Positions 2,984-55,823 of a stretch of 64,000 nucleotides of DNA are shown piece by piece. The notes under the pieces were generated by a model. It did not search any database. It worked only from the letters and a program-made list of their open reading frames with translations, and was not told where the DNA came from. The translations under genes and the position numbers were made by a program. Source of the DNA: Flavobacteriales bacterium (GTDB taxonomy: Bacteria; Bacteroidota; Bacteroidia; Flavobacteriales_C; GCA-002722245); the NCBI GenBank assembly GCA_023251095.1, contig JAHEZL010000020.1, positions 1-64,000 on the forward strand, given 5' to 3'. Numbering within the stretch: position 1 is the stretch's first letter; every line of letters begins with the position of its first letter.

Positions 2984-3085
2984 AGATTATCGTTTCTAAG
3001 GGTAATATTACAGAAGAATGGATTCGTTACAAGAGAAACAGAAATATTTTTTCAAGGCGCATATATACAGGGCTTCACCTCTCTA

Positions 3086-3127
3086 CGTCATTGCGAAATT
3101 TTTGTACTCAAAAATGAAGCAAACTCA
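3086..3127. repeat. Dispersed hairpin repeat, copy 2
   Basis: Reads CGTCATTGCGAA, then the ATTTTTG-TACT-CAAAAAT hairpin, then GAAGCAAACTC. Nearly identical to the copy at 26761. Outer arms TTGC/GCAA and inner arms ATTTTTG/CAAAAAT are both self-complementary, separated by unpaired GAA on each side. Confidence 0.9.
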
Positions 3128-3160
3128 TTTTTTCTTTTTGTCTTCTTTTAAAAGAAGCAA

Positions 3161-3310
3161 ATCGATACTTTTTGTCTTGAAACAAAAAGTATCCAAAAAA
3201 TTCAAGAGCCAAGACCTGCCTGCCGGCAGGCAGGGATGCTGCTCTCGCACGAAAAACCTTTGGCGCGCCCGCCTCTTGGCTCGGGCCCTCGCACGAAGTT
3301 AGTTGCCCGT
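3161..3310. repeat. Dispersed inverted-repeat element, copy A (with insertion)
   Basis: Shares with 19361-19481 an ACTTTTT...CTTGA...AAAAAG hairpin, then CAAGAGCCAAGA, then CACGAAAAACCT, then CGCCCGCCTCTTGGCTCGGG and CCCTCGCACGAAGTTA. GAGCCAAGA near the left is the inverse of TCTTGGCTC near the right, so the element can fold on itself. This copy contains an extra 20-bp palindrome at 3215-3234. Confidence 0.88.
3215..3234. repeat. 20-bp perfect palindrome nested in element copy A
   Basis: CCTGCCTGCCGGCAGGCAGG is its own reverse complement. Removing it makes the flanks read CAAGAGCCAAGA-GATGCTGC, exactly as in the copy near 19396, so it looks like a clean insertion with no visible target duplication. 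Confidence 0.9.
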
Positions 3311-8400: not shown

Positions 8401-9846
8401 TTATCCTACTGATCCTTCTAATGAAATTTCAAGCAATTTTTTTGCTTCAACTGCGAATTCCATCGGAAGATTATCCATTACATTTTTACAAAATCCATTC
8501 ACGATCAAGCTGATTGCTTTTTCGGTTTTTATACCGCGCTGATTGCAATAAAACAATTGATCTTCGCCGATTTTAGAGGTAGTGGCCTCGTGTTCAATCT
8601 TCGCCGATTTGTTGTTGCATTCAATGTACGGGTAAGTGTGAGCACCGCATTTATCGCCCAAAAGCAAAGAATCGCATTGAGAGAAATTTCTAGCTTTTTC
8701 CGCGCCTTTATTGATTTTCACCAAACCTCTGTAAGAGTTATTGCTTTTTCCTGCAGAGATTCCTTTAGAGATAATGGTGCTTTTTGTATTCTTTCCAATG
8801 TGGATCATTTTGGTTCCGGTATCGGCTTGCTGGAAATTATTGGTTACCGCTACAGAGTAGAATTCCCCAACACTATTGTCGCCTTTTAAAATGCAAGACG
8901 GATATTTCCAGGTAATTGCAGAACCGGTTTCCACCTGAGTCCAAGATATTTTTGAGTTTACGCCTGCGCAAATTCCGCGTTTGGTAACGAAGTTATAAAT
9001 CCCTCCGCGCCCTTTGGAATCACCTGGATACCAGTTTTGCACGGTAGAATATTTTATCTCGGCATTGTCCAAAGCAATGAGTTCAACTACTGCAGCGTGC
9101 AACTGATTTTCATCGCGCTGCGGAGCAGTACAGCCTTCCAGGTAACTTACGTAAGAGCTGTCTTCAGCAACAATCAATGTTCTTTCGAACTGACCGGTGT
9201 TGGCTTCGTTGATGCGGAAATACGTAGACAATTCCATCGGGCAACGAACGCCTTTCGGAATGTAGCAGAAGGAACCATCGGTAAATACCGCGCTGTTCAA
9301 TGCCGCGTAGTAATTATCGGTCATAGGCACCACTGAGCCTAAATATTTTTTCACCAGTTCAGGGTGGTGTTGTACGGCATCGCTGAAAGAACCGAAGATA
9401 ATTCCCAGTTCCATCAGTTTTTCCTTGTAGGTTGTTTTCACGGAAACCGAATCCATTACAATATCTACAGCTACTCCTGATAATAATTTTTGTTCTTCCA
9501 GTGGAATTCCCAGCTTGTTAAAAGTCTTCAAAACTTCAGGATCTACTTCATCTAAGCTGTTCAAAACCTTTTTAGGTTTTGGTGCGGAATAGTAAACTAT
9601 CTCCTGGAAATTAATTTCAGGATAATGAATGTGGGCCCAGGTTGGCAAGGGCATTTCTTTCCAAAGCTTGAAGGCTTTCAGGCGGAATTCCAACAACCAT
9701 TCAGGCTCATTCTTTTTAGAAGAAATGAGGCGGATGGTGTCTTCGGTCAATCCTTTTGGCGCCTTGTCCGATTCAACATCGGTTACAAATCCGTATTTGT
9801 ATTCGCCGGTGGTGGCGTCTTTTATGGCCTTTTCGCTGTCGCTCAT
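8401..9846 (-). CDS. sufB: Fe-S cluster assembly protein SufB
   Basis: 481 aa, the usual SufB length. SufB is the scaffold subunit that receives sulfur from SufE and holds the nascent cluster. Recognised by [20 protein letters not shown], by SYLEGCTAP, by [19 protein letters not shown] and by the C-terminal [19 protein letters not shown]. The C-terminal His/Cys/Glu residues used for cluster assembly appear intact. It begins 3 bp after sufA and is followed by sufC. Confidence 0.97.
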
Positions 9847-10274: not shown

Positions 10275-10306
10275 AAAAAATCCCAACAAATATTTGTTGG
10301 GATTTT
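10275..10306 (-). terminator. Terminator after accC
   Basis: Perfect arms AAAATCCCAACAAA (10277-10290) and TTTGTTGGGATTTT (10293-10306). Read on the minus strand the hairpin ends in a run of six T. It lies 22 bp downstream of the accC stop and ends the yceD-to-accC transcript just before the SUF promoter. Confidence 0.85.
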
Positions 10307-19360: not shown

Positions 19361-19481
19361 CTTACTTTTTCCTTGATGAAAAAGCAACAAAAAATCAAGA
19401 GCCAAGAGATGCTGCCATCACACGAAAAACCTCACACACGCCCGCCTCTTGGCTCGGGCCCTCGCACGAAGTTACCTGCCC
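19361..19481. repeat. Dispersed inverted-repeat element, copy B
   Basis: Matches 3161-3310 over the ACTTTTT/AAAAAG hairpin, CAAGAGCCAAGA-GATGCTGC, CACGAAAAACCT and CGCCCGCCTCTTGGCTCGGG to CCCTCGCACGAAGTTA. GAGCCAAGAG and CTCTTGGCTC are exact inverse arms. It lacks the 20-bp palindrome of copy A. Located between convergent ribE and the LD-carboxypeptidase gene. Confidence 0.88.
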
Positions 19482-26760: not shown

Positions 26761-26804
26761 TACGTCATTGCGAAATTTTTGTACTCAAAAATGAAGCAAC
26801 CTCA
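26761..26804. repeat. Dispersed hairpin repeat, copy 3
   Basis: TACGTCATTGCGAA, ATTTTTG-TACT-CAAAAAT, GAAGCAACCTCAT. It occupies nearly all of the 51 bp between the convergent stop codons of the M23 peptidase and GT9 genes, so any terminator at this junction must be this repeat. Confidence 0.92.
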
Positions 26805-55780: not shown

Positions 55781-55823
55781 CGTCCTTGCGAGATTTTTGT
55801 ACTCAAAAATGAAGCAATCTCAT
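55781..55823. repeat. Dispersed hairpin repeat, copy 4
   Basis: CGTCCTTGCGAG, ATTTTTG-TACT-CAAAAAT, GAAGCAATCTCATT. One arm base differs from copies 2 and 3. It takes up most of the 68 bp between the convergent gpsA and transporter genes. Confidence 0.9.

Follow-up and report, generated by a model that had tools for sequence, protein, structure and literature searches.

A 20-bp palindrome in a dispersed repeat of a Flavobacteriales genome is probably a mobile hairpin shared by distant bacterial phyla and phages

The 20-bp palindrome CCTGCCTGCCGGCAGGCAGG, found within a dispersed repeat of a Flavobacteriales bacterium, is probably a non-autonomous REP-like mobile hairpin, which is horizontally shared by about ten bacterial phyla and phages and moved in trans. 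This reading is based on precise pairs of filled and empty sites, an orthologous empty site, a common flank preference, and phylum-wide identity. It is further based on an intergenic bias, an enrichment in tRNA copies, and in-frame copies in real genes.

The analysed window comprises 64,000 nucleotides, and the genome that contains it (G000) was searched over its full 3.59 Mb in 43 contigs. The palindrome occupies positions 3215-3234 of the window, where the sequence is exactly that given above. It is a perfect 20-letter palindrome without strand, has one copy in the window, and is flanked by CAAGAGCCAAGA and GATGCTGC; it was defined as an element by its sequence, its five exact copies in the genome, and its folding. 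Computed as DNA, it folds into an 8-bp stem with a CCGG loop (-8 kcal/mol). The preliminary description of this DNA reported an exact palindrome inserted into a dispersed repeat, here called copy A. The sequence confirmed this report, and the host is a hairpin repeat of about 100 bp. Copy B (19361-19481, + strand) belongs to the same repeat family by sequence comparison. It has a type 1 leader and an empty site at the 19407/19408 junction; positions 19396-19415 are CAAGAGCCAAGAGATGCTGC, the junction without the palindrome. Removal of the 20 bp was said to restore copy B exactly, which is correct for the junction but not for the whole element, as the two copies share ~86% identity over 77 bp past the junction. 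The string LPAGRQG can be read in one frame of the palindrome, as had been noticed, and this LPAGRQ(G) frame falls in an ORF at 3018-3302, which is not convincing as a gene. By chance, ~2e-7 exact copies of the 20-mer would be expected in this genome (inferred from composition; the window has 40% GC), and five were found. The palindrome read backwards served as the control, which is likewise a perfect palindrome of equal composition; it was absent from all the genomes searched and from the viral collection.

The five exact copies in G000 are located in contigs C9 (the window), C20, C27, C31, and C34. A sixth filled copy, in C28, is shortened to 16 bp by the absence of one CAGG unit, and a two-mismatch match lies outside the host repeat in C2. 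No exact 20-mer was found elsewhere in G000 outside the host repeat. The host repeat was detected as 45 BLAST pieces, representing ~30 copies. It comprises a 5' leader of one of two types, a stem of 9 bp (GAGCYAAGA/TCTTRGCTC), and a tail that is conserved (GGGCC..CGCACGAAGTTA). The stem pairing is kept by a C-G to T-A double change, with 14 copies in the C-G form and 7 copies in the T-A form. All five exact copies and the 16-bp derivative occupy one site of the host repeat, at the loop-side end of the left arm, where the palindrome folds into its own hairpin. About 20 sister copies are empty; the situation in which every host copy is filled, named beforehand as a sign of deletion from copy B, thus did not occur. 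In copy A, the filled repeat spans 3203-3302 (+ strand) with the 9-bp stem GAGCCAAGA/TCTTGGCTC, as defined by a 24-copy alignment, the double changes in the stem, and folding. The 5' part of copy A (3142-3202, + strand) contains the palindrome CTTCTTTTAAAAGAAG and the hairpin GATACTTTTTGTCTTGAAACAAAAAGTATC, and was assigned as the type 2 leader of the family by sequence comparison and folding.

Several other hairpins were observed around these repeats. A neighbouring dispersed hairpin repeat, CGTCATTGCGA...GAAGCAA, was recognised by sequence comparison at 3086-3122 (+ strand), with others at 26763-26799, 55781-55817, and 110-146. Other phyla also have its outer stem, GTCATTGCGA/GAAGCAATC, but there the inner hairpin varies and can be the 20-mer (L075). 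Three host repeat copies of G000 (L037, L038, and L040) have a different long inner hairpin in the loop, e.g. GAAATTTTTTATCCGTCGG..., and the host repeat loop therefore accepts several inserts. A 30-bp perfect palindrome, AAAATCCCAACAAATATTTGTTGGGATTTT, is located between genes at 10277-10306 of the window.

The precision of insertion was analysed by a gap scan of 241 distinct sites, in which other copies of the two 12-base flanks were sought at spacings from -11 to +40. An unfilled copy at a spacing of exactly 0 was found for 23 sites, a count that includes one site to be discounted (L070) and perhaps a few chance matches of low complexity; every other spacing gave at most 4. These gap-0 sites indicate that there is no target-site duplication, as in IS200/IS605-type insertion. 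Among the 241 sites, target duplication was limited to a single gap -1 case, a tRNA copy of genome G016 with an extra G. The junction bases are biased: A occupies position -1 at 44% of the sites and T at 8%, with the mirror image at +1 (p=4e-12). This preference for a junction between A and T recurs in the viral, genome-contig, and whole-genome sets, and a second preference lies three bases out. Beyond the A/T bias at +-1 and +-3, the flanks contain no conserved guide tetranucleotide, no fixed target tetra- or pentanucleotide, and no GTAG/CGTC tag. Nested insertions into the palindrome itself or a variant were found at L070 and in a tRNA-Arg copy of G016. Hairpin loops with a stem of 5 or more were targets in 22% versus 15% (p=0.004), and longer stems were not significant, so hairpin-loop targeting is at most weak. 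General hairpin-loop targeting was rejected, because local folding at the sites is no different from that at random positions and the loop enrichment is weak.

Insertion without target duplication and precise loss had both been proposed for the difference between copies A and B. In the congener G003, the orthologous repeat is CAAGAGCCAAGAGATGCTGCC, which is empty, and its adjoining upstream gene is 92% identical to the gene beside copy A; this indicates a gain of the palindrome in the window genome. The exact 20-mer is absent from all four congeners searched. Together with the 23 gap-0 sites, these results support insertion. It is very improbable that the host repeat originally contained the palindrome, with precise loss from copy B and the other empty copies. 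Partial loss does happen, as the C28 copy retains a 16-bp remnant minus one CAGG unit. However, the empty ortholog, the congeners without the 20-mer, and the ~20 empty copies argue against ancestral presence, and gap-0 pairs occur in many unrelated hosts, including tRNA genes, for which there is no doubt about the ancestral form.

The spread of the inserted palindrome within G000 was also considered. The filled state requires 6 changes on the host tree, compared with a mean of 5.6 for shuffled labels, and hence does not track the tree. There are 0 substitutions within the 20 bp of the five exact copies, where ~7.4 would be expected from the terminal branches of their hosts (P about 6e-4). Given the shortness and weak support of the host tree, this tree-based result is an indication and not a proof. 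Filled copies occur with both 5' leaders. Because all six filled sites share one position, there were probably one or a few insertions into the host repeat, after which recombination or gene conversion would have carried the palindrome from copy to copy. We are evenly divided on whether one insertion into one host repeat was followed by multiplication of the filled repeat or conversion of its sisters, with the palindrome itself hardly moving in G000. The single position in one repeat family, with no exact copy elsewhere in the genome, agrees with this explanation, and the copies at 1.20-1.23 Mb in genome G043 are likewise mostly at one position of another repeat. The filled copies are scattered on the host tree and have both leaders, which simple duplication does not explain, although conversion could. 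Nor can one insertion account for the variety of sites occupied in G016, in G074, and across phyla.

The sites of this putative mobile hairpin are mostly intergenic: only 8% lie in an open frame over at least 600 of 800 bases, versus 62% of control positions. Sequences resembling tRNA are frequent hosts. They account for 13 sites versus 8 of 2,400 control positions, a 15-fold enrichment by BLAST against detected tRNAs; in one of the 13 (L070), the palindrome merely matches itself, and without this site 12 are left. Most of these hosts are partial copies, and several adjoin an intact tRNA of the same kind at the same locus. In a tRNA-Arg(CCT) copy of G016, the palindrome is located in the D-loop and a nested variant pair in the T-loop. 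The tRNA-Arg(CCT) copies at L235 and L236 (about 985-1110) likewise have the palindrome in the D-loop and a nested palindrome in the T-loop, with an intact gene nearby in L236. Phage tRNA-Met genes carry the palindrome in the variable loop in two viral contigs (L193, 2239-2330; L172, about 8570-8650), and Rfam and ARAGORN both still classify that of L193 as a tRNA. When the flanks were joined, ARAGORN detected the phage tRNA-Met only, because most of the tRNA hosts are partial copies. In another viral contig (L200, 1182-1416), a group I intron lies ~0.3 kb downstream of a tRNA that adjoins a palindrome-bearing tRNA copy.

The palindrome is also found in protein-coding genes. Conserved genes for chorismate synthase, RecG helicase, phosphomannomutase, RNA pseudouridylate synthase, and peptidase M48 encode LPAGRQ in frame, with the insertion inside the Pfam domain in each case. 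This was seen in several genomes, most of them Patescibacteria. The spread into genes hinted at in the preliminary description was thus found in other genomes, but not at the window locus. In chorismate synthase, the carrier has 7 residues (LPAGRQV) where its relatives have 3. The net change of +12 nt indicates that this is not a plain insertion, and that loss as well as gain was involved. The intergenic bias, the palindromic form, and the lack of mutations in the G000 copies would also agree with a conserved functional site, such as a transcription terminator or a protein-binding site that is selected or arises repeatedly. This explanation is improbable, as no T-run follows the palindrome, the sequence is absent from most genomes even within a genus, and it occurs in tRNA copies and inside coding sequences. 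Moreover, many decayed variants were found in the high-copy genomes when three mismatches were allowed, with the reversed control still at 0.

The distribution of the 20-mer is wide. Of 60 relatives, 9 carry it; G016 has 43 copies, the highest exact count per genome, and G043 has 12. Eight of these 12 copies lie within 33 kb of contig C2 (1,200,428-1,232,722), mostly between GCGAGG and AATC of another repeat. The 20-mer was also detected in 27 of 395 Bacteroidota genomes (reversed control 0) and in 86 of 380 Patescibacteria genomes, with up to 25 copies each (reversed control 0). Absence of the 20-mer from related genomes, which had been named as evidence against mobility, therefore did not occur. 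A scan of 84,980 species genomes identified at least 116 stretches with the 20-mer. Among the matches listed, counted by hand from the record titles, there are at least 44 from Patescibacteria, 32 from Bacteroidota including Ignavibacteria, 12 from Omnitrophota, and 7 from Nitrospirota. The same matches include a few each from Elusimicrobiota, Planctomycetes, Verrucomicrobia/PVC, Chloroflexota, Desulfobacterota-type, WOR-1, and Lindowbacteria, and at least 8 without a phylum. In viral contigs, 33 stretches carry the 20-mer, versus 0 for the reversed control. The exact 20-mer thus spans about ten bacterial phyla plus phages, a breadth that the preliminary description did not anticipate. Among the papers searched, none mentioned the 20-mer or LPAGRQG, none dealt with REP in the candidate phyla radiation, and the remainder of the literature search yielded analogues only.

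The self-complementary 20-mer resembles a linker, and the majority of all records come from metagenome assemblies; outside Bacteroidota, nearly all do, with a few curated or complete exceptions. A sequencing, library, or assembly artefact, such as a self-complementary linker or k-mer fold-back, is nevertheless extremely improbable. The flanks are contiguous in empty relatives, which argues against a chimera. The 20-mer is carried by isolates, including Winogradskyella echinorum, Longitalea luteola (29 copies in 7.3 Mb), Salegentibacter (12 copies), and Maribacter halichondriae (complete chromosome). It also decays by point mutation, has a target preference, and keeps the reading frame in conserved genes.

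The congeners G001 and G002 carry 35 and 8 copies, respectively, of a second perfect palindrome, TCCGTCAGCTGACGGA, which is absent from G000 (control 0) and was not anticipated in the preliminary description. It has multiplied in these two congeners, neither of which has the 20-mer. In viral contigs, it was found in 25 stretches versus 6 for its control, 4 of those 6 being from one contig. It also occurs inside the same host repeat in G001 (L316, 1485-1500); a near-copy is present in the right arm of the filled copy in C27, and in one repeat it replaces another inner hairpin. No precise empty sites were found for this second palindrome.

The machinery that might move the 20-mer was sought among the Y1 transposases (PF01797). 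Of 16 genomes searched, 15 have such genes, among them congeners that do not carry the 20-mer, and only 1 of 30 fetched Y1_Tnp loci has a copy of the 20-mer within ~1.5 kb. No Y1_Tnp match was found in G061, which has 12 copies. A linked RAYT (TnpA-REP) is not supported by these results. By eye, no recurrent transposase was found among the genes between neighbouring copies. A Y1 enzyme acting in trans from a distant source would be compatible with this lack of linkage, and the clean junctions and the hairpin form suggest an enzyme acting in trans. The element would enter between two adjacent bases, preferably A and T, usually without target duplication or loss. It might move as a folded single strand, and the enzyme supplied in trans would join the hairpin into the target by a chemistry most like that of Y1/HUH enzymes (IS200-TnpA or TnpA-REP).

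Among the known systems, the REP elements are the nearest kind. REP/BIME sequences are 20-40 bp extragenic palindromes, which are dispersed, non-autonomous, located inside other repeats, and sometimes found within genes (PMC3733652). The 20-mer resembles REP/BIME with TnpA-REP (RAYT) in its size of 20 bp, its extragenic and dispersed occurrence, and its presence inside other repeats and sometimes in genes. It differs in lacking the two features that define REP elements, a GTAG or CGTC tag at one end and, at the loci seen, a linked Y1 transposase. The TnpA-REP genes have been described as coevolving with their cognate REPs (PMC6006769), whereas one identical 20-mer spans about ten phyla. The lead of greatest interest is the Bacteroidetes TnpA subclass 2.6, which has atypical structures on its flanks (PMC6006769). 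Compared with a MITE, the 20-mer has no target-site duplication at gap-0 sites and is wholly palindrome instead of having terminal inverted repeats.

Insertion without target duplication is typical of IS200/IS605 and Y1/HUH chemistry. Hairpins of about 20 nt are a recognised feature of IS200/IS605 elements (PMC6006769). The 20-mer shares both properties; however, it is a bare hairpin with no guide or target tetranucleotide and only a loose preference for A and T. The Rickettsia palindromic elements (RPE) are about 100-150 bp in length. They are palindromes inserted in frame in working genes (PMC3733652). Compared by description, in-frame insertion in conserved genes is common to both, but RPE are known from Rickettsia, whereas the 20-mer has 20 bp and crosses phyla. 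The mitochondrial repetitive and double hairpin elements are short mobile hairpins with unknown machinery and a patchy distribution (PMC2800124, PMC7218506). These are organellar, lineage-specific sequences, whereas the 20-mer is one sequence common to distant bacteria.

Known REP-type palindromes travel with the transposase of their own lineage. An identical 20-mer in about ten phyla, with clean insertion at defined sites, would imply either that a bare hairpin has been transferred very widely together with an unknown enzyme, or that hosts have a general activity for capturing hairpins. A bolder proposal, which we regard as tentative and somewhat doubtful, is that few horizontally transmitted mobile DNAs are smaller than this palindrome. 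It would be moved between phyla by an unrecognised, widely shared, and possibly phage-borne integration activity that joins the hairpin between A and T without duplication. Several palindromes of this kind would then exist, TCCGTCAGCTGACGGA being the counterpart in the neighbouring species. As filled and empty sites are easily scored, the mechanism of small palindrome mobility is testable. The recurring LPAGRQ string in predicted proteins is explained as an insertion footprint, which matters for the annotation of Patescibacteria.
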